Virus record (IMG/VR): IMGVR_UViG_3300021964_000212
Location: 1 to 36,132 of that record
Reading direction: 5' to 3' (one strand)
Source: a virus
DNA length: 36,132 bases
Under the pieces are notes generated by a model. That model was not told the origin of the DNA. It saw only the letters and a list, made by a program, of their open reading frames with translations, and did no database searches. Position numbers and translations under genes: made by a program. Position 1 is the first letter of the stretch. Every line of letters begins with the position of its first letter. Positions 10,121-24,073 of the stretch are shown here, one piece after another.

Positions 10121-10139
10121 AACATCTCCTTTTACAAAG

Positions 10140-10191
10140 ATGCGTTCCTTCGGTTTCATTACCTACTTCCGTCTGTTTCCAGATGAACGAT
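10140..10191 (-). promoter_or_regulatory. Glutamine (glnA-type) riboswitch, proximal copy
   Basis: Read on the minus strand (10191 to 10140): outer stem CGTTC/GAACG, hairpin TCTG-GAAA-CAGA, conserved ACGGAAGTAG, hairpin GGT/ACC, conserved CGAAGGAACGC. This three-way junction and its conserved strands match what I know of the glnA RNA motif, an L-glutamine aptamer found in cyanobacteria and marine phages. It ends about 20 nt before the start codon, so control of translation initiation is likely. Confidence 0.82.
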
Positions 10192-10192
10192 A

Positions 10193-10243
10193 ATGCGTTC
10201 CTTCGTCACTTCTGACTACTTCCGTCCAATAAGGATGAACGAT
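10193..10243 (-). promoter_or_regulatory. Glutamine (glnA-type) riboswitch, distal copy
   Basis: Second tandem copy one base upstream of the first (minus strand 10243 to 10193). The same conserved strands ACGGAAGTAG and CGAAGGAACGC and outer stem CGTTC/GAACG are present. The two inner hairpins differ in sequence but still pair (TCC/GGA and GTCA-GAAG-TGAC). This is covariation between the copies and strongly supports a folded RNA. Confidence 0.82.
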
Positions 10244-10536: not shown

Positions 10537-11208
10537 CTATCTTTTTTCGCATTGCCTCTCGGCTTTATTAAGTAATCTAAAATTATTTGCTACAACAACT
10601 CCAGTTGAAACACCTGCACCTAATTTCCAACCATACCAAAAAAGTTCGTCAGCATCTAAAACAAATTTTATTCCACCAATAACACCTATCTTTAAACCGA
10701 TCATTTCATGCACTTTTGGAACTTCGGGTAATAAAGGATTTGCTTCAAAGACACAATCATATTTCATACCTTTATATGTTGAATATACATCAAGTATCTG
10801 TGTGGTCCAAAAGAATATATCAATGTATCTTTTTTCTCTCTCGTTCCAATAAAAATCTGGAGAGGACATATCTAGGTCAAGATTTACATCATTTACTGAG
10901 AATTGTGGAGCACGTTCCTGGAATTTTGGTTTGTGTTGTAAATCATGAAAAGTAGGAACAAATTTAGGACCATAAGGTAATTGGATAATTGCACCGTTAG
11001 ACATTATTCTAGCTTTGCCTACAATTGTTCGGCGAATATAATGTTCGCTGTATGGAGCAAAATGCCCTTGTTGAAATTGTGCTAAATGTCTTTGATTAAC
11101 GTTGGGTATGTAATGATTTTCTATTTTAGGAACATAGGCACTTACCGGAATACTCAGAAAAAGTAATCCGATAATTAATTTATTTAGTCGTGGCAATAAA
11201 AATTCCAT
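10537..11208 (-). CDS. Exported/membrane protein with DUF5658-like C-terminus
   Basis: A 223-aa protein with a signal-like N-terminus (LIIGLLFLSIPVSA, about 11-24). A middle region rich in His and Tyr follows, then a C-terminal segment ILDVYSTYKGMKYDCVFEANPLLP with two further hydrophobic helices. The D...ST...EANPL pattern is that of DUF5658-type small membrane domains. The start overlaps the end of the cyclase gene by 29 bp. Last large gene of the curli operon; function unknown. Confidence 0.68.
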   Translation of the reverse strand: MEFLLPRLNKLIIGLLFLSIPVSAYVPKIENHYIPNVNQRHLAQFQQGHFAPYSEHYIRRTIVGKARIMSNGAIIQLPYGPKFVPTFHDLQHKPKFQERAPQFSVNDVNLDLDMSSPDFYWNEREKRYIDIFFWTTQILDVYSTYKGMKYDCVFEANPLLPEVPKVHEMIGLKIGVIGGIKFVLDADELFWYGWKLGAGVSTGVVVANNFRLLNKAERQCEKR

Positions 11209-13219
11209 CCCAATCTCTTGGTAGCGTTTGTGTTTTCATATATTCACATCGCTCTATCCACATTTTGTAATATCCAGCCATTTGGCCTTCAAAACATTCC
11301 ATCAAGTTATTACAGATTTTAATGGCCTTATCAAAATTTTGTTTTCGATAATTCAGATGCATTGCTTCATGCATCTCTGTGGGTTTAATATATTTATTCT
11401 TGTCCAAATCAAGTACTGTGTATATTTCAATACCTACTGTCTTGCCTTTCACTGCCAAATCATCTACTTTTAAAAAGAAAAAGTCATCACGACAATGTTT
11501 TACTGTATCTCCACCTACTAATAAAAGACAACCATATTCTTTACATTTTGATTCGATACGAGCAGCGGTTGAAACAGCGTCTCCAAGTACATCATAACTA
11601 TGCCTTTCGGTAGAACCCATCTCGCCGAGATAACCTAATCCTGTATTAATTCCAGCACCCATACCAATTGGAGGCCTTCCTTCCGATACAATCTTTTTAT
11701 TAAATTCTTCTACAGATTTTAGCATATTCAATCCAGTCTGAACAGCTGTTTTCGGATGGTCGGGATCTTCTATTGGTGCATTATGAATATGCATTGAAGC
11801 ATCACCTATATACTTAATAATCATTCCATCAGCGTTAAGGACAGGCTCTGTGATTGAATCCATATATCCATTCATTAATTTTGTCAAGCCTTGTACATCG
11901 TCTCCAAAACTTTCACCTAATGGTGTAAATCCTCTTAAATCGGAAAAACAAATACTAACTTCTTTTTTCATACCTTCTTTAATGAGGGCAGGATTTTCTT
12001 GTAAGAGACGAACAACTGTTGGGGAAGCATACCCAGAAAATTGCTTTTGTATTTGACGTTTCTCTAAAAACGTGATATAATACTTATTGAAACTTGATTG
12101 GGCAAAAACTACTAAGGAAGCTAATGAACTCAAAGTTGCATCAACGAAGATTAAAGAATTCCAAAGATACAGAGATATTCCATAAGAGGAAAAGAGCTGA
12201 ACGAGACTCACTATCACCGCAAGAGTTGTGGGTAAGATATAGACCGCTCCAAGGATACCTAGACTCAATAGGACCAGAAGAGCAAGCTCGGCTATTGGCT
12301 GCCAGTCGGGAATCTGTATTTCGACTCCTGAAAGAACGGTCTGAATTAACTGGGCTTGAACTTCGTGGGGATACTTTGCACCCAATGGGGTTGCGACTGG
12401 ATTAGCATATCCTTCAGCTGTAACTCCAAATAAAAGAACCTTTCCTGCTGGAAGTGGATCTAATATACTAATTTGTTCAAATTCGTTCCAGAATGCAATT
12501 GGTATTTCAGCAAAACTATTTGTTGTAATTGGGTCTTGTCGACCCATTCGTATCCATTCAACACCATTGGTGCCGACTTTCATCTGATAACTTGGTTCTC
12601 CTGTAAACACTCGTAACGTATCGAGGGCGAGAGATGGATAGGGATTCCCGGCTGCTTTGACCACGAGCGGTGCTCTTCGCACGACTCCGGTTGGTGCGTC
12701 AGGAATAGCAACAGTAGCGCCGACACCAAAAGCCCAAGAAGAAAGAGATTCCACAGGGTACAATAATCCAGGAAACGAGTATAGCCAATTTTCATTTTGT
12801 TCTCCAAAAGTTGCAACACCTACAAAGGTGCCAACTCCATCTGATGTCTGTTGAGTGGGAGCAGAAGATAATACAACAGCTTTATTTGCCATTGCTTCTG
12901 CTAGTTGATTATCCTCTCCGAATCTATCAGATTCGGAATAAATCATATTTAGTACATATAAAGAATCAGCAGGGCCAGAATTAATATAATCAGCAACACT
13001 GCCCCTTGGCCAAGGATACTGACCATTTTTTGCAATTGCCCTTTCATCAATGTTGACGAGGACGATGTCACTCGATACAATTTTTTCCTTTTTGGAATGG
13101 AGATAGTCATAATAAGAATACTCTATACTTTGAATAAAATTTGGGTTTGTAATACTTAATGTTGCAAACCCAGTGATGGTTATTAATACAGTCCACCATT
13201 TTGTGAGATATTTAAGCAC
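11180..13219 (-). CDS. CHASE2-domain class III adenylate cyclase
   Basis: A 679-aa membrane receptor cyclase. One N-terminal membrane helix (about 10-25), an extracytoplasmic CHASE2 sensor (about 45-300, with VNIDERAIAKNGQYPWPR), membrane helices between about 308 and 375, and a class III catalytic domain (about 418-560). Metal-binding D427 (FSDLRGFT) and D473 (YIGDAS), ATP-type K469 and D543, and transition-state R554 are present. The usual transition-state Asn is Ser550 (GDAVSTAAR). The start is GTG at 13219 with AAGGA upstream, overlapping hemE by 8 bp. Expected product cAMP; activity is uncertain because of Ser550. Confidence 0.88.
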   Translation of the reverse strand: MLKYLTKWWTVLITITGFATLSITNPNFIQSIEYSYYDYLHSKKEKIVSSDIVLVNIDERAIAKNGQYPWPRGSVADYINSGPADSLYVLNMIYSESDRFGEDNQLAEAMANKAVVLSSAPTQQTSDGVGTFVGVATFGEQNENWLYSFPGLLYPVESLSSWAFGVGATVAIPDAPTGVVRRAPLVVKAAGNPYPSLALDTLRVFTGEPSYQMKVGTNGVEWIRMGRQDPITTNSFAEIPIAFWNEFEQISILDPLPAGKVLLFGVTAEGYANPVATPLGAKYPHEVQAQLIQTVLSGVEIQIPDWQPIAELALLVLLSLGILGAVYILPTTLAVIVSLVQLFSSYGISLYLWNSLIFVDATLSSLASLVVFAQSSFNKYYITFLEKRQIQKQFSGYASPTVVRLLQENPALIKEGMKKEVSICFSDLRGFTPLGESFGDDVQGLTKLMNGYMDSITEPVLNADGMIIKYIGDASMHIHNAPIEDPDHPKTAVQTGLNMLKSVEEFNKKIVSEGRPPIGMGAGINTGLGYLGEMGSTERHSYDVLGDAVSTAARIESKCKEYGCLLLVGGDTVKHCRDDFFFLKVDDLAVKGKTVGIEIYTVLDLDKNKYIKPTEMHEAMHLNYRKQNFDKAIKICNNLMECFEGQMAGYYKMWIERCEYMKTQTLPRDWDGIFIATTK

Positions 13220-14147
13220 GATATTCCTTAACAGTATTAACTAATGCCCTCACATTTTCTACTGGTGTAGTTTTATGTATACCATGAGCAAGATTTACTA
13301 CGTAAGGTTTATCTTTCATTTTATCTAATACAGGAGTTATATCTTCTCCGTTTATGAGTCTTTGTACTGTTATTCCACCTTGTAATACTTCACCGTGTAT
13401 TTCATCGACGGGTTTATCATCACTAATATTTGTACAATCTGGATTGACAATCTCGATGTATTTGTTTATCTTATCACCAACTAATCTTGGGAAAGCTATA
13501 ATACAAACATGAGGATAATGTGCTCGAATAATATCAACAATTATTTTTGTTGGTTCAATAACAATTTCATCAAAGTCATGTTCCGATATATCACCAGCAT
13601 GACTGTCGAATATTTGTATCGTATCACAACCAGCTTCAATCTGCATTGAAAGGTGAGTTACAATATATGGTATTAATCGGTTAACTATATCTGAATCTAC
13701 AGAATCACACATGTACTTACAGAGCGTATAAGGAGCTGCTGCAAAACCAATAAGTGATTTACTATCATCAAGTTCTTCTCTTACTCTTCTGATAGCTTCA
13801 TAAACAGGTTCGCATTTTTGAATAAAGTCACCTTCTGTTGTTTCCCAAAAAGATTCGTTATAAGGTCCCAGTACGGGACTAGGTGTGTAATCTAATTCTT
13901 GCCCTAAAGCATAATTGATTATTAATATGTCTGAAAATATAATTGCTGCATCCATATCAAATTCTTTAATAGGTTGCATTGTAATTTCTGCTGCCTTACT
14001 TGGAGTAAGAGCCATATCTAAAAAGCCATTTGATTTTTCTTTGATCGCCATATATTCTGGCATATATCTTCCGGCTTGTCTCATTAACCAAACAGGATAT
14101 AAATTGACCTCTTTATCCTGTATGGTCCTTTGTAATAACGTTTTCAT
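13212..14147 (-). CDS. hemE: Uroporphyrinogen decarboxylase
   Basis: A 311-aa HemE that would convert uroporphyrinogen III to coproporphyrinogen III in the cytoplasm. Signature 1 is PVWLMRQAGRYMPEY (18-32, substrate-binding R23 and R27), followed by IIFSDILI with catalytic D73, AAPYTL with Y140, and NLAHGIHKTTPVENV with H288. FDSHAG (180-185) differs from the usual FDSWAG. It is shorter than typical bacterial enzymes (about 340-355 aa). It lies 6 bp after the second curlin gene with no clear Shine-Dalgarno, so coupling is likely. All main substrate-binding residues are kept, which argues for function. Confidence 0.92.
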   Translation of the reverse strand: MKTLLQRTIQDKEVNLYPVWLMRQAGRYMPEYMAIKEKSNGFLDMALTPSKAAEITMQPIKEFDMDAAIIFSDILIINYALGQELDYTPSPVLGPYNESFWETTEGDFIQKCEPVYEAIRRVREELDDSKSLIGFAAAPYTLCKYMCDSVDSDIVNRLIPYIVTHLSMQIEAGCDTIQIFDSHAGDISEHDFDEIVIEPTKIIVDIIRAHYPHVCIIAFPRLVGDKINKYIEIVNPDCTNISDDKPVDEIHGEVLQGGITVQRLINGEDITPVLDKMKDKPYVVNLAHGIHKTTPVENVRALVNTVKEYRA

Positions 14148-14153
14148 AATTAA

Positions 14154-14891
14154 TTAATTTTGTGTCACTGAAACTGAACACCCACCTACAGTATAACAGG
14201 TTTGATTGAGTGAGTATGATTTGTTTGCAGTTGAATCTTGTAAAAGTGTTATATCTGTTCCGTATGTTCCGTCAAGTCTTATCCATGCATAATGATTTCC
14301 ACTATTCTTTTGAACAACATCAACAATATTATTATCATTAAAAATATCTAAATCTAATGTATGTCCACCACCTTCTTTTTGAATAGTAGATATATCATTA
14401 TAATCTCCTTCAAGATGTAATCCATACCAATGACCTGCAGAACTACTGTTTGTTCGTTGAGTCATTTCTATATCGTTATAATCACCAGTGACATTCACAT
14501 GAACAAAGGTATCGCCATACTCATCATTGTCTACAGAAAAACTTCCATCTGCATTGATGATATATCCTTGAGCAAGTTTTAGGTTATTGCCTTGCCCCCA
14601 AACTCTACGAATCTCTATAATGTTTTTATCGATAGAACTACCATAGTTTTTATTTTGTGCTATCGCTATTGTATTGTCTGCACCATCTATTCCTTCTGTA
14701 GATGACCATTGTTTAATGATATTGCTATAACCTGTTTGTGTTATATTTAGATCAAAATTATCACCAGTCTGTTCTATTGTGATTTCATTATCTGCATAGG
14801 CTTTACCGGCTGCCAAAAGAAAATACATTCCTAATAGGCACCAACTAAATCCTAATAACCATTTGTCTAATTTTTTGTCAAATTCGTCCAT
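14154..14891 (-). CDS. Curlin-like amyloid repeat protein (CsgA/CsgB type), second copy
   Basis: A 245-aa secreted protein: a long N-terminal region with hydrophobic core and a likely cleavage after KAYA (about 34), then curlin-type repeats of the form N-x-I-x-I-x-Q-x-G-x-x-N (DNEITIEQTGDNFDLNITQT, DNTIAIAQN, DYNDIEMTQ, NNIVDVVQKNSGNH). In curli, such repeats stack into a beta-solenoid amyloid exported through CsgG. Two cysteines near the C-terminus (QTCYTVGGCSV) are unusual for curlins and are shared with the first copy. It follows the FecR-like gene by 9 bp. Confidence 0.85.
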   Translation of the reverse strand: MDEFDKKLDKWLLGFSWCLLGMYFLLAAGKAYADNEITIEQTGDNFDLNITQTGYSNIIKQWSSTEGIDGADNTIAIAQNKNYGSSIDKNIIEIRRVWGQGNNLKLAQGYIINADGSFSVDNDEYGDTFVHVNVTGDYNDIEMTQRTNSSSAGHWYGLHLEGDYNDISTIQKEGGGHTLDLDIFNDNNIVDVVQKNSGNHYAWIRLDGTYGTDITLLQDSTANKSYSLNQTCYTVGGCSVSVTQN

Positions 14892-14900
14892 AGTATCTAT

Positions 14901-16046
14901 TTATCCACCTTGTCTTATAATTACTGTTGAGTCATTACCACCATTTAAATCTATAATACCTGAATATCCTTCTACTTCTGTGTTGATTTTTACTGAAGCA
15001 TCTACAGCAAATGCTAATTGAATTTTTCCATTTGCCATACGATAAAAAATTATTTTACCATTATCTTCATAAATGTTATATTGAGAATCTGAATTTAAAC
15101 CGAAAGTTGCACCTTTTAATTCTGCGCCCATCACAGTATTTGATACTGCACTATCATCTAATGAAGCTGTTGTTTTTACAAGATCATCAATTACATTTAA
15201 TAAATCAACAAGAAAATCTACATTTAAAAAATCAATATCAAGTTCTGAAAATTCTAATTCGTCTTCCTCTAATGCATCGTATTCCAATTCGTTAAACTCT
15301 AAAAAGTCAACATCAAGCAACCCTTGGTCCTGATTATTTTCATCGTTGTATTCTTCTTCTAACGCTCTTTTTACTTCAGGAGGCGGAGATACAATGAACA
15401 TATTGTCAATAATATTTGCTGTTATGTTTTGAATGTTAATCTGTTTTGTTGGCGGGTCATCTAATGTGGAAACCATTGTAGCCGCATAAGCCTCTTCCAA
15501 TACTATAGTACCACCAAGATTTGACACCTCTATAGTACCTGATGGGTTTCCATATTGGTCTGGTAAAAGTATAACTAGTGACCTTCCAAGTTCATCTATG
15601 GTAGTGGTAAAGTCTGTTCCTCTTACAGCAATGGACGCCGTAGGTGTTTGTATATCTATATTGCTTTTGTTGACCATGCCTAAACGACCAGATGCAAACC
15701 TTGCGGTTCCCATTGCCATTCTCATTGCCATTTTTGATTTGCTTGGGTCTGGGTCGTAGTATACTTTATCAATGTATACCTTTGTATTTTCTGTAAGACT
15801 GAGTTCTGCTTTATCTAAGAATTCGATAAGCATTCGGCCATTCTCGGTTTCGGCCGTATCATTTATTACGATATCTGGAACTTGTGTGTCTGAAACTTCT
15901 AACGTTGCTCCAGCTTCTCGAGTAATGGAAGCACTTCCCTTATGCTCAATGATATTCCCGATGGGCTCTGCATTAGAACCCATCGAAAATAGTAGAATAC
16001 TAACTGTCGTTAGATGAATCTTTTTGATTAATCTGGATAGTAGCAT
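14901..16046 (-). CDS. FecR-domain exported protein
   Basis: Start set at ATG 16046 (381 aa); a TTG at 16058 is possible. A signal peptide (IHLTTVSILLFSMGSNA) is followed by a FecR-type beta domain: TAETENGRMLIEFLDKAEL, KVYIDKVYYDP, and the hallmark TPTASIAVRGTDFTT. The C-terminal half has a very acidic, repetitive stretch (about 225-290, with LEFNELEYDALEEDELEF) and ends NDSTVIIRQGG, which resembles a single curlin repeat. Exported FecR-domain proteins occur near curlin genes in other bacteria. The gene overlaps the preceding curlin gene by 47 bp. A scaffold or nucleator role for the curlins is inference. Confidence 0.8.
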   Translation of the reverse strand: MLLSRLIKKIHLTTVSILLFSMGSNAEPIGNIIEHKGSASITREAGATLEVSDTQVPDIVINDTAETENGRMLIEFLDKAELSLTENTKVYIDKVYYDPDPSKSKMAMRMAMGTARFASGRLGMVNKSNIDIQTPTASIAVRGTDFTTTIDELGRSLVILLPDQYGNPSGTIEVSNLGGTIVLEEAYAATMVSTLDDPPTKQINIQNITANIIDNMFIVSPPPEVKRALEEEYNDENNQDQGLLDVDFLEFNELEYDALEEDELEFSELDIDFLNVDFLVDLLNVIDDLVKTTASLDDSAVSNTVMGAELKGATFGLNSDSQYNIYEDNGKIIFYRMANGKIQLAFAVDASVKINTEVEGYSGIIDLNGGNDSTVIIRQGG

Positions 16047-16731
16047 TTTCAGAATCAATGTCTAAAGTTATAATTCCGTTACAGGTTGATACACCTGTAG
16101 GACATGTTCCACTTAATTGATTGATATCTATATCAGCACTGTCACCAACATGTGTCAGGTTGATTTCATGTTCTGCACCATCTTTTTGCATTGTATTAAT
16201 ATTATTCGAATCTCCAGTAATATCGAAGTTCCAAATTGCATCGTCTACATCTATATCAATATCGAATACATTAGATGAACCAATAACAGATAAATCAAAA
16301 TCTAATCTCTCTGCACTTGCGTTATAACCTAGATCGAAATCCATAGTATTGCTATCACCAGTTATAGCAGATAAAATGTCTGCTGAATCTGATGAACCAA
16401 TATAACCAATATTCCAATCCCATACATTACTATCTCCAGTCCAAGTAAGATCTATTGTTGAACTGTCTAATGTAATAGGACCAAAAAGCAAATTGCTATT
16501 ACCAATTTGATTAATGTCAATATTCAAAGTTGCACCAATAATAGACATTGCTGAAAGAGAGCCAGAAGAGGCATTGTCTCCTCCAACTTTGTTTCCATAT
16601 CCATATTGGTCAATATATAAAGTCAGCGTATCACCTTGTTGGTCGATATTAATTTCGTTATCGTCAGTCGCCTGCGCAAGAGCAAAAGTGGAAACAAAAA
16701 CTAAACTTAGGCCTAATAGTTTTTTAATCAT
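16000..16731 (-). CDS. Curlin-like amyloid repeat protein, first copy
   Basis: A 243-aa protein with a clear signal peptide (MIKKLLGLSLVFVSTFALAQ, cleavage near residue 19). Repeats follow the curlin rhythm: DNEINIDQQGDTLTLYIDQY, NIDINQIGNSN, TGDSNVWDWNI, TGDSNTMDFDLG, TGDSNNINTMQ, DIDINQ and a final TIQINQ. Many repeats carry Asp and Trp where Gln is usual, so it is a divergent curlin. A Cys pair (GTCPTGVSTC) lies near the C-terminus, as in the second copy. It overlaps the csgG-like gene by 8 bp. Confidence 0.87.
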   Translation of the reverse strand: MIKKLLGLSLVFVSTFALAQATDDNEINIDQQGDTLTLYIDQYGYGNKVGGDNASSGSLSAMSIIGATLNIDINQIGNSNLLFGPITLDSSTIDLTWTGDSNVWDWNIGYIGSSDSADILSAITGDSNTMDFDLGYNASAERLDFDLSVIGSSNVFDIDIDVDDAIWNFDITGDSNNINTMQKDGAEHEINLTHVGDSADIDINQLSGTCPTGVSTCNGIITLDIDSENATIQINQKDSSNDS

Positions 16732-17641
16732 TTTTCTTTTCCTCGTTATTTGTGTTTATCGTCCAGAAACCACGACGATCCCCTTGATAAACCATTTCTA
16801 GCACTGCTGCTTCTATAGCTGTTCGCACTGCATACGTCACACTTTCATTATTTCCTACACCGTCTTCATATTCTATCAACTGTGTTCCTTGTTCTATAAA
16901 TCTAAATACATCGCCTCCAGAACCATAACTTAAAATTGTCTTTTTCGTTTGGACATTTAATAGTACTTCACCAGTAAGAACTGATACTGCTCTTAAAGAA
17001 ACAGTCACCTGGTCTTGTCTATATTGTCTACTAAATCCAATACCAAGTGTTCGAGCCCCTCGGCCACCAGTTTTTAAATTACTATCATATCCAATTATAC
17101 CACCTTCTATAATCATTCCCGCAAACAAAAGTGGTCCTAAATTTTGTGGCTTTTCTCCAAGAGCTTTGGCAGCTTCATCTCTGCCACTTCTAATAATTTG
17201 TCTTTCTCTTACAAGAGCATCAATTCCTTGTCGCTCGACTACTCTAAACCACTTACCTTCTCCTGCAGTTTTGAGTGCGTCTATTAATAATTCCGTTCCA
17301 CCTTGTGTTACCGCAGTGGAGAAACTTTGCCCTGTAACTGAATCTTTACGTTGTCCCGTTTTATCTAAAAACTGATATACTGCAACGACTGGCATTTGTT
17401 GTGCTGGTGGTAAATTTAATAATTCTATATAAGATGGTAATTTTACAACTTGTGGACTTTCAGCACATATTAATTGACTTGTGTAAAACTTTCGAACGCC
17501 TGTATATACATCTCTTCCCCAGCCTTCGTCATACTTTCCAGTCTCGTATGCACAATTTGCAGGATTCTCGCTCCATTGTGGTATAGAAGCACATCCTGTG
17601 AGGAATAAAAATATACTAACCGCCGTCAGGATTCGAGTCAT
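16724..17641 (-). CDS. csgG: CsgG-like curli secretion channel lipoprotein
   Basis: Start at ATG 17641, preceded by GGAGGAACAG (305 aa). The lipobox LTGC with Cys17 directs it to the outer membrane. CsgG features: MPVVAVYQFLDKTGQR, TELLIDALKTAG, WFRVVERQGIDALVRERQII, then AGMIIEGGIIGYDSN and RQDQVTVSLRAVSVLTGEVL, the strands that form the periplasmic ring and barrel. CsgG assembles as a nonameric pore that exports curlin subunits. It is somewhat longer than E. coli CsgG. Its start overlaps the csgF-like gene by 26 bp. Confidence 0.9.
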   Translation of the reverse strand: MTRILTAVSIFLFLTGCASIPQWSENPANCAYETGKYDEGWGRDVYTGVRKFYTSQLICAESPQVVKLPSYIELLNLPPAQQMPVVAVYQFLDKTGQRKDSVTGQSFSTAVTQGGTELLIDALKTAGEGKWFRVVERQGIDALVRERQIIRSGRDEAAKALGEKPQNLGPLLFAGMIIEGGIIGYDSNLKTGGRGARTLGIGFSRQYRQDQVTVSLRAVSVLTGEVLLNVQTKKTILSYGSGGDVFRFIEQGTQLIEYEDGVGNNESVTYAVRTAIEAAVLEMVYQGDRRGFWTINTNNEEKKND

Positions 17642-18116
17642 CTGTTCCTCCGCCGAAATTACCACTACCAATTGGTATTTCAATTACTGTGGTAGTTCCA
17701 TCTTCGCCTACAATTGTCATTTTGATATATTCAGTACCATCTTCATTTGTGAGTACTTCATATGTCACTGTAGAACCTTCAAGAACAAATGAGCCAAACC
17801 TTACAGGATTGTCATTTGAAAACATATTATCAACTAACTGCTTTGCTAGTTGGGCGTATATACGTGATTCTAAATTACGAATAAATTTAGCGAGTATAGT
17901 ATTATCTGCTTCTCGTTCCGCTGCTTTTCTTGCAGCTTCTAAAGCATCTTCTATTTGTTTCTTTCTACTGTGTTCCTGGTTTTCAATTGTTAAATAATGA
18001 GCACCAGTTCCAATCCCAGAGAAAGAAGGATTTTTAAACTTGTGTACAATTGGCTCTGCCTGAACAGTACCAATTGCAAATAATAAAATTAAACTACTTT
18101 TTAGTTTGTTTTTCAT
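17616..18116 (-). CDS. csgF: CsgF-like curli assembly factor
   Basis: Start set at ATG 18116 (166 aa); ATG 18137 would add seven residues. A signal peptide (SSLILLFAIGTVQA, cleavage near 20) is followed by FKNPSFSG (27-34), which corresponds to the conserved F-x-NP-x-F-x-G at the mature N-terminus of CsgF that inserts into the CsgG pore. YLTIENQE, a charged helix, a beta-rich domain and a Gly/Asp tail follow. CsgF links export to nucleation at the cell surface. Position just before csgG supports the call. Confidence 0.85.
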   Translation of the reverse strand: MKNKLKSSLILLFAIGTVQAEPIVHKFKNPSFSGIGTGAHYLTIENQEHSRKKQIEDALEAARKAAEREADNTILAKFIRNLESRIYAQLAKQLVDNMFSNDNPVRFGSFVLEGSTVTYEVLTNEDGTEYIKMTIVGEDGTTTVIEIPIGSGNFGGGTDDSNPDGG

Positions 18117-18363
18117 TTTGATTTTTAAGACTCTCATTCTCTTTATATTTTAATACCACATCTACTTTTTGCTGTAAACGAATAAGATCTTGGTCTAGCA
18201 TTCTCATTCGGTCAATTACCTTTATCAATTGCATATGCTGTTTGTCTATTTCTGGCTGTAATTTTTCGTTTACAAATTGCCAGACAAAATAGACAAAATA
18301 TCCAAGACCAACAACCATTACGACCGGAAAGCCATATTCTGATATTAGTTGTGCTACATCCAT
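18094..18363 (-). CDS. Small membrane/coiled-coil protein, YvrJ-like (89 aa)
   Basis: Start at ATG 18363, one base after the previous stop. LISEYGFPVVMVVGLGYFVYFVW is one membrane segment, then a long charged coiled coil (MQLIKVIDRMRMLDQDLIRLQQK). The ISEYGFPVVM opening resembles YvrJ-type and holin-like proteins. It overlaps the csgF-like gene by 23 bp. It could be a holin-like protein or a membrane anchor for the curli system; sequence alone does not decide. Confidence 0.65.
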   Translation of the reverse strand: MDVAQLISEYGFPVVMVVGLGYFVYFVWQFVNEKLQPEIDKQHMQLIKVIDRMRMLDQDLIRLQQKVDVVLKYKENESLKNQNEKQTKK

Positions 18364-22665: not shown

Positions 22666-22703
22666 AATTGGACGCTTTAGCTTGATTTCTAAGCGTATTT
22701 AGG
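22662..22703 (+). other. Inverted repeat after the glycosyltransferase gene
   Basis: CCTAAA (22662-22667) pairs with TTTAGG (22698-22703), and inside it ACGCTTTAG pairs with CTAAGCGT with one bulged base. There is no U-tract, so it is a weak terminator or an mRNA end-stabilising hairpin. The rest of the gap to 22780 is AT-rich with nothing recognisable. Confidence 0.5.
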
Positions 22704-22785
22704 GTTGTACATATATGATTAATACGCCGATATATAGCATATCTTACATAGCGTTAAAAAAATATAACTTTTTATAGTAAACGTG

Positions 22786-22814
22786 TTGACATTTGCTAAA
22801 GTTTATTGTATAAT
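22786..22814 (+). promoter_or_regulatory. Early-type promoter of the large RNA
   Basis: TTGACA (22786-22791), 17 bp, TATAAT (22809-22814), preceded by TAAACGTG and AACTTTTT. Unlike the other early promoters, no ribosome binding site and ATG follow within 50 nt; transcription would start near 22821, at the beginning of the structured RNA. Confidence 0.88.
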
Positions 22815-22820
22815 AGACAC

Positions 22821-23582
22821 ATATTGAGGGAAACACCCCACCAACAGAGACAATTGGTGAATGGATAACCTGAGTCGAATAGAAGATCTTATCAATCGGA
22901 AGGCTCAAAGATATAGGTGGACAACCCGACCGGCAGCTTGAGCCGGGGATATCAACCGAAGTACAAAGTTGGTATTGCCCGAAGTAATGGGAAGGCCGAT
23001 GCAGGAATGCATGTAATTATACGGGTCAGAACGAATCAATATAGTGGGTATGAAAGCGTCTCCGTGTATGAAGAAACGCTCGATACAGAAGTCCCCAAAC
23101 TAGTGCGGAAACACAAGATGAAGTACTATAATCTAGGGAAGGGGCGTAATGGAAAAGGAAGAGCCTCACCTTCCCCGCAAGGAAACCGAGGAATACAGGA
23201 CGGCAGTCCAGGCTTTATTCCCTTTAGGCAGAGATGGTAGTACATGGATGCTACCAACCGAGACTGGGATTAACGAGTACCATGTAAGTCCGAGAGACGT
23301 ACCTACGATTTTTTAAGAGTTTCAATAATAGGGGCTCAAAGCTCGGGGTAGCGGCAGGAATTTAAGATTAACAATTCCACATTATTTAACGAATTGCGTT
23401 AACACAAATTCCACCGCCCCAAATTTTAAGTTTTAGGTAGTTTGAAATCCCTGATTAGTCATCAGGTCCGGTAGCCCGGCTCAAATAACAAATGACGATT
23501 GTGAGTGAGAAGTTCAATACCAAGGCGGATCTTGACATACCTTTGATAGGCGTATATGGAAGGTCCGCCGATTTGTATACTG
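22821..23582 (+). ncRNA. Large structured noncoding RNA candidate (about 760 nt)
   Basis: The stretch from the promoter to tRNA-Glu is clearly richer in G and C than its surroundings and full of pairable segments: CACCAA/TTGGTG (22839-22857), CCGGC/GCCGG (22929-22945), ATGCA-GGAA-TGCAT (a GNRA loop, 22999-23012), GGGAAGG/CCTTCCC (23136-23176), TGGTAG/CTACCA (23234-23255), and a bulged 14-bp helix from GGGGTAGCGG with CCGCCCC (23355-23420) enclosing TTAACG/CGTTAA. At the 3' end a perfect 10-bp helix (23525-23573) has an inner 7-bp stem. Size, phage context and position directly before a tRNA recall the GOLLD and ROOL ornate RNAs. Membership cannot be tested by eye. RNase P cleavage of the tRNA would define its 3' end. 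Confidence 0.7.
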
Positions 23583-23657
23583 GGCCCGTTCGTCTAGTGG
23601 TTAGGACACATGGTTTTCATCCATGCAACAGGAGTTCGATTCTCCTACGGGCTGCCA
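23583..23657 (+). tRNA. tRNA-Glu (anticodon TTC), CCA encoded
   Basis: Acceptor stem GGCCCGT/ACGGGCT (first pair G-U), D-arm TCTAGTGGTTAGGACA, anticodon stem CATGG/CCATG with loop TTTTCAT (anticodon 23616-23618), T-arm AGGAG-TTCGATT-CTCCT, discriminator G and encoded CCA at 23655-23657. All arms are intact. It reads GAA/GAG. It lies directly at the end of the structured RNA. Confidence 0.96.
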
Positions 23658-23661
23658 GATT

Positions 23662-23796
23662 ATGAGAGATATGATACAATTAATAAGAGAAATCGTGTGG
23701 TGTTTTACAGCTATTACAATTTTAGCAATGTTAATACTTTGGTATGAGGGAGCATTTACCAAAGGTTGTTTAAATCTGGTATGGTCTGTATTATGA
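23662..23796 (+). CDS. Small membrane protein (44 aa)
   Basis: ATG 23662, 4 bp after the tRNA CCA end. One membrane segment (about 11-29, IVWCFTAITILAMLILWYEG). No good Shine-Dalgarno, since the region upstream is tRNA. Its TGA overlaps the next ATG (ATGA), which supports translation. Confidence 0.5.
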   Translation: MRDMIQLIREIVWCFTAITILAMLILWYEGAFTKGCLNLVWSVL

Positions 23797-24044: not shown

Positions 24045-24073
24045 TTGACATTTGTTCGCTTTTATAGTATAAT
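24045..24073 (+). promoter_or_regulatory. Early-type promoter
   Basis: TTGACA (24045-24050), 17 bp, TATAAT (24068-24073), preceded by TAAACGTG. Confidence 0.88.

Follow-up and report, generated by a model that had tools for sequence, protein, structure and literature searches.

A covarying large RNA of T4-like aquatic phages, probably the product of an autonomous non-coding RNA gene

To our knowledge, only a handful of large (>400 nt) structured RNAs of bacteria and phages are known. Both phage ones solved so far are cages of unknown use, GOLLD assembling as a 14-mer nanocage and ROOL as an 8-chain nanocage. The RNA-only nature of the GOLLD and ROOL cages, the universal 3′ region of GOLLD and one marine-metagenome example of GOLLD downstream of a Met-tRNA have been described (PMC12286853). 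In Vibrio phage ICP1, a long non-coding RNA is more abundant than any other phage transcript (PMC7567579). The RNA described here shares the phage setting of these systems and has its conserved part at the 5′ end.

The locus and its relatives

The window analysed here, an IMG/VR record 36,132 bases long, comes from a T4-like myovirus and has genes for a gp23-type capsid, scaffold, portal, sheath and terminase. About 760 bases of raised G+C (0.48 vs 0.31–0.36 in most flanking windows, in line with the initial annotation) lie between the gene of a TET-associated glycosyltransferase (PF20691, 21718–22665, + strand), an enzyme which suggests modified phage DNA bases, and a tRNA-Glu gene. The whole RNA gene was mapped to 22821–23582 on the + strand. 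The RNA start is expected at 22821–22823 from the position of a sigma70 promoter, TTGACA-N17-TATAAT, at 22786–22814 (+), with the −35 at 22786–22791 and the −10 at 22809–22814, and the 3′ end was placed at the 5′ end of the tRNA, where RNase P is predicted to cut. The tRNA-Glu (anticodon UUC; 23583–23657, +) is intact, as had been noted, but it is separated from the last stem of the RNA by 13 nt and not by a single base. Similarly, the promoter does have the consensus form for which it had been called the best type in the window, but it is not special to the RNA, as ten such sites are present. These ten consensus sigma70 promoters with 16–18-bp spacers, for example at 22786–22814 and 24045–24073, compare with 0.12 expected; all are located on the + strand, for which they apparently form a promoter set of the phage's own. 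The folding energy of the RNA was not significant (MFE z-score of −0.67, 20 shuffles) and was therefore not used as evidence; the case for a structure is made by covariation and not by stability. The window also contains a tandem pair of glutamine riboswitch aptamers (RF01739, at 61.6 and 56.2 bits; 10139–10243, − strand) and a phage-encoded CHASE2 and nucleotide cyclase protein of 679 aa (11180–13219, − strand), which is a sensor-type second-messenger enzyme.

The gp23 of the window was used as a lead to 80 contigs, with which the RNA was then compared by blast. This comparison returned a close copy (94%, L004), a 75% copy with indels (L053) and partial copies in L010 and L007; L023 and L017 matched weakly, with no more than motifs from the 5′ two thirds preserved. 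DNA patterns (UUGAGGGAAACACCCC; GGUGGACAACCC...GGCAGCU; AUGAAGAAACGCU; UUAAC.AGUA...AGUCCGA) were run over IMG/VR, and 55 distinct sequences were obtained after DNA motifs and profile iteration, with L266 and L267 (model scores of 103–107 bits) added from the last pattern scans. The 57 distinct relatives of the RNA are located in IMG/VR contigs of T4-like phages, all of them metagenomic. L199 was rejected as a member because the 17-mer in common was there by chance, without a model match. A blastn search of 50,697 phage records returned no homologues, only tRNA matches or short chance ones, and the RNAs of L108 and L132 had no match in phage records either. When bacterial genomes were searched, over the contigs bearing the 5′ 16-mer of the RNA, 59 exact 16-mer matches gave 0 homologues (best E about 0.2), and thus no chromosomal copy was found within these contigs. 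The RNA was present once per contig by model R1, including a phage contig of 156 kb, and a second R1 match in G321 was at chance level (16.8 bits).

Among cultured phages, those nearest by gp23 have Sinorhizobium, Stenotrophomonas, Methylophilales and Synechococcus as hosts. The window carries a curli-type cluster (14154–18137, − strand), and such clusters are widespread in pelagimyophages (PMC7029224). Its CsgG, CsgF and weak curlin-repeat match fit with pelagimyophages, whereas the cultured gp23 relatives have other hosts.

The conserved core and its covariation

Only the first ~490 of the ~760 nt are common to the whole family, and the remainder is a lineage-specific 3′ module. The core spans 22821–23310 (+), being ~490 nt in the window and ~400–440 nt in compact members, the greater length here resulting from inserts in P6 and P9. 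It opens with a near-invariant 5′ end, UUGAGGGAAACACCCC (22824–22839, +), having a possible GGG/CCC hairpin, which is followed by the P2 hairpin ACCAA/UUGGU (22840–22858, +; by inspection), where other lineages have an extra hairpin. P3 (22871–22876 paired with 22902–22907, +) encloses P4 (22885–22887 with 22895–22897, +), which has the loop NUUAUCA and 9 distinct stem versions. P7 is a hairpin of the form AUGCA-GGAA-UGCAU (22999–23012, +), in which the GNRA (GGAA) loop is invariant in 34 aligned sequences while the stem is rewritten; we counted 15 stem versions, always capped by GGAA, and the four inner pairs were 93–100% standard. P8, a stem of 5 bp (23065–23087, +) around the conserved GAAGAAACGCUCG, occurs in 12 versions including GCACAU/AUGUGG, GAGCAU/AUGCUA, GGGUGU/ACACCA and GGUCAU/AUGACG. 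P9 (23093–23095 with 23142–23144, +) is longer in the window lineage, which has an insert there, and P10 (23164–23191, +) was obtained from the structural alignment. P11, GGAC-GGCA-GUCC (23198–23209, +), is supported by covariation with 8 versions, such as GGAC/GUCC, GCUC/GAGC, GAAC/GUUC, AGAC/GUCU and UGAC/GUCA. P12 (23219–23222 with 23266–23269, +), read from the alignment as CUCC/GGAG, UCCC/GGGA, CUUC/GAAG, UCUC/GAGA and UAUC/GAUA, surrounds the hairpin P13 (23236–23240 with 23251–23255, +), which was taken from member sequences. A candidate P8 pseudoknot, AGCGU/ACGCU, is present in the window and was rejected as it is not kept in other lineages.

The covariation was assessed in two ways. 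The motif-anchored stems were read around sequence anchors with no structural fitting. In addition, a covariance model of P7–P11 was made from ten compact members of lineages other than that of the window; this model recovers every other lineage, and the window itself scored 39.2 bits (E 5e-8). In the structural alignment of 34 distinct rows, 98.0% of the cells pair, both-side changes were seen in 24 of 25 pairs, and the covariation score was 0.754 compared with 0.193 for shuffled and up to 0.124 for slid partners. Because the structural alignment is fitted to the model, we give more weight to the motif-anchored counts, and the two agree. Among the 99 well-filled unpaired columns, 39 were invariant and 30 of these were purines (19 A), while 36 of the 38 paired columns varied and only 2 were invariant. 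Invariant loops beside varying helices are expected with tertiary contacts such as those of GNRA and A-minor type. When single pairs were tested in the manner of R-scape on a plain MAFFT alignment, only two reached significance, one of them a base pair, which we attribute to the abundance of nearly identical copies, the small number of deep clades and the misalignment of indels; the motif-anchored stems and the structural alignment were used in its place. The large structured RNA of the initial annotation thus passes the check proposed there, with covariation among relatives and no reading frame conserved, and the segment in the window is almost certainly a real structured RNA.

In the 3′ module, whose consensus fold was −107 kcal/mol, the consensus fold of relatives backs a long bulged helix at 23357–23412 (+), in agreement with the bulged helix of the initial annotation. 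It has an outer stem GGAAUUU/AAAUUCC, an inner stem AAUUC/GAAUU and the loop CACAUUAUUUAAC. The same fold contains a hairpin CCUGAU/AUCAGG (23450–23466, +). The terminal 10-bp hairpin (23524–23569, +; 23524–23533 with 23560–23569), described earlier as perfect, is real, and through compensatory changes the relatives have six versions of it, each of them fully paired, but it is not strictly perfect as the window copy has one G.U. Furthermore, L099:2025–2300 is a natural deletion variant, which keeps the promoter, the 3′ module and the 5′ part as far as P4 but has lost P8–P12. The retention of both ends without the middle of the core indicated that the parts of this RNA are modular.

Promoters, 3′ ends and neighbours across the family

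The sequence TTGAC-N17/18-TATAAT is found at a constant distance before AUUGAGGG in nearly every member with upstream sequence, L176 having a variant −35 (TTGCCT), so that the promoter first assigned to the RNA from the window holds across the family. The 3′ ends differ between lineages. A strong intrinsic terminator comes straight after the core, at 432–475 nt, in 12 members and further down, at ~557 nt, in L094 and L100; L093 and L092 also have one further down, ahead of hemC, and L266 and L267 show the same form of terminator as the terminator-ended members, which are without the 3′ module. In the window lineage no terminator was found between the 3′ module and tRNA-Glu, which makes their co-transcription probable.

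The neighbours of the RNA also change. They are a TAGT glycosyltransferase and tRNA-Glu in the window lineage, and hemC is located downstream on the same strand in 13 loci. The RNA comes directly after gp23 in L157, L181, L108, L132 and others; in the L193 group it follows a DnaB-type (gp41-like) helicase, and in the L107 and L109 group it lies in a nuclease/ligase region (SNase/DNA ligase). The tRNA at the end of the RNA, on which its first description had relied, is thus true of the window lineage but is not a defining neighbour, since many members are without one. A promoter at fixed distance, terminators and changing neighbours together argue for an autonomous RNA and not a gene leader, and its own 3′ end and conserved fold add to the expectation that it acts in trans; from these sequence signals, we consider it very probably autonomous and trans-acting. 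The covarying multi-helix structure without a conserved ORF, together with the promoter and 3′ end recognised as sequence signals, agrees with the broad kind of large autonomous phage non-coding RNA.

The hemC gene encodes porphobilinogen deaminase, and in L097 the order is RNA, tRNA-Glu(UUC) and hemC. A hemE-like URO-D gene is located elsewhere in the window (13212–14147). Since C5 tetrapyrrole synthesis starts from tRNA-Glu, a heme link of the RNA/tRNA-Glu/hemC cluster is possible.

Proposed action, alternatives and known large RNAs

The locus is probably a gene for an autonomous non-coding RNA in T4-like aquatic phages, and its product may be an abundant architectural RNA, possibly oligomeric. 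Host RNA polymerase would transcribe the RNA from the consensus promoter, from which its transcription and abundance are predicted. The core would fold compactly around invariant unpaired elements, and the candidate contact elements are the GGAA tetraloop of P7, which is possibly a tertiary anchor, the NUUAUCA loop of P4, the strand AACGAAUCAAUAUAG and the P8 loop GAAGAAACGCU. These elements would make tertiary or RNA–RNA contacts, intra- or intermolecular, and the RNA would act in trans as a folded molecule that might form a homo-oligomer of the kind seen in GOLLD and ROOL. The transcript of the window lineage would run on into tRNA-Glu and be cut by RNase P at 23582/23583. An architectural RNA was favoured because the size, phage setting and modularity are like those of GOLLD/ROOL and the ICP1 long RNA. 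By this analogy, a homo-oligomeric scaffold can be suggested tentatively. A slightly bolder speculation is that the RNA represents a phage nanostructure of a third kind, in which the core might self-assemble through its invariant loops into an RNA-only oligomer, the window lineage might display or enclose the attached tRNA-Glu and 3′ module, and the compact lineages might form the bare assembly.

The main rival, to which we give the same tentative standing as to the homo-oligomeric scaffold, is a regulatory or decoy RNA that would use the invariant loops for binding a host target such as the ribosome, RNA polymerase, an RNase or mRNAs. Invariant single-stranded motifs, for example AACGAAUCAAUAUAG and GAAGAAACGCU, would suit such a role, whereas the many helices and the ~440-nt size exceed the needs of a simple antisense RNA. 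A role in cis, as leader or attenuator of the hemC or tRNA-Glu that lies downstream, would agree with the always co-directional arrangement of hemC in 13 loci and of tRNA-Glu in the window lineage, and with many members having no terminator found before the downstream gene. We regard it as improbable because the 12 terminating members have unrelated genes behind them, L093 and L092 terminate before hemC, and the core stays constant while the neighbour changes between lineages.

The membership of GOLLD or ROOL, which the initial annotation had proposed beside a new class, was not supported. In the search of Rfam 15 (4227 families), only the tRNA reached its gathering score in 22700–23700, and no other family was over the cut-off in the RNA region in a search opened to E 10. 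The models RF02032 (GOLLD; gathering score 150 bits, with no positive control found among 300 genomes of one Gram-positive class) and RF03087 (ROOL; 99.1 bits) did not match the RNA in the window and eleven relatives at E up to 10, and the sole weak GOLLD match (E 0.69, L259) lies outside the RNA. Under the same search set-up, the ROOL model scored 228 and 239 bits on true ROOLs, and model R1 had no significant match in a ROOL-bearing genome. A divergent GOLLD or ROOL missed by the Rfam models would explain the similar size, phage location, adjoining tRNA and variable modules around a conserved part. It is nevertheless very unlikely given these 12 records, and the conserved part here is 5′ with compact members ending after ~440 nt, whereas the universal region of GOLLD is 3′ and its 5′ region variable (PMC12286853). 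A remnant of a self-splicing intron or other catalytic RNA, to which the size and the GNRA loop are similar, is still less credible, since no Rfam intron or ribozyme model matches and the RNA has its own promoter and terminator and lies between genes, not within one. The protein-coding reading was ruled out: a 107-aa ORF (22917–23240) does lie open inside the RNA, where no convincing gene had been seen, but it had no Pfam or PHROG family match, the frame was not kept in the relatives examined for it (longest stop-free runs of 52–83 aa in different frames), and the changes track base pairs and not codons.

A new class is supported, in the sense of an RNA absent from Rfam 15 and the searched phage collection and unnamed in the literature found. 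This class, unrelated to GOLLD and ROOL, has dozens of members, a compact form of ~440 nt, natural domain-deletion variants and exchangeable 3′ modules, and with it one can ask independently whether large phage RNAs in general form cages or oligomers, and what role they have in infection. Among the known large RNAs, OLE is likewise a large ornate bacterial RNA and forms a homo-dimer (PMC12286853), but it occurs mainly in extremophilic bacteria and no Rfam match was found for the new RNA. The ~800-nt long non-coding RNA of ICP1, located between gp139 and gp140, is a stand-alone RNA of a lytic phage with similar size; it differs in adjoining lysis genes in a phage without tRNAs, and model R1 gave at most 7 bits on it. 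The ICP1 region (80097–81107, L265:5098–6108) reached no Rfam 15 cut-off and may represent another unclassified large phage RNA. ROOL resembles the new RNA in being phage-borne, ~600 nt long, rich in helices, near tRNAs and with no known protein partner (PMC12286853), but its model finds true ROOLs and misses this RNA. GOLLD is also large, phage-borne, several hundred nucleotides long, modular and often near or containing tRNAs. The new RNA differs from GOLLD in lacking a model match, in many members being without a tRNA, in compact members of about half the GOLLD size, and in carrying its universal part at the 5′ end where GOLLD has it at the 3′ end.
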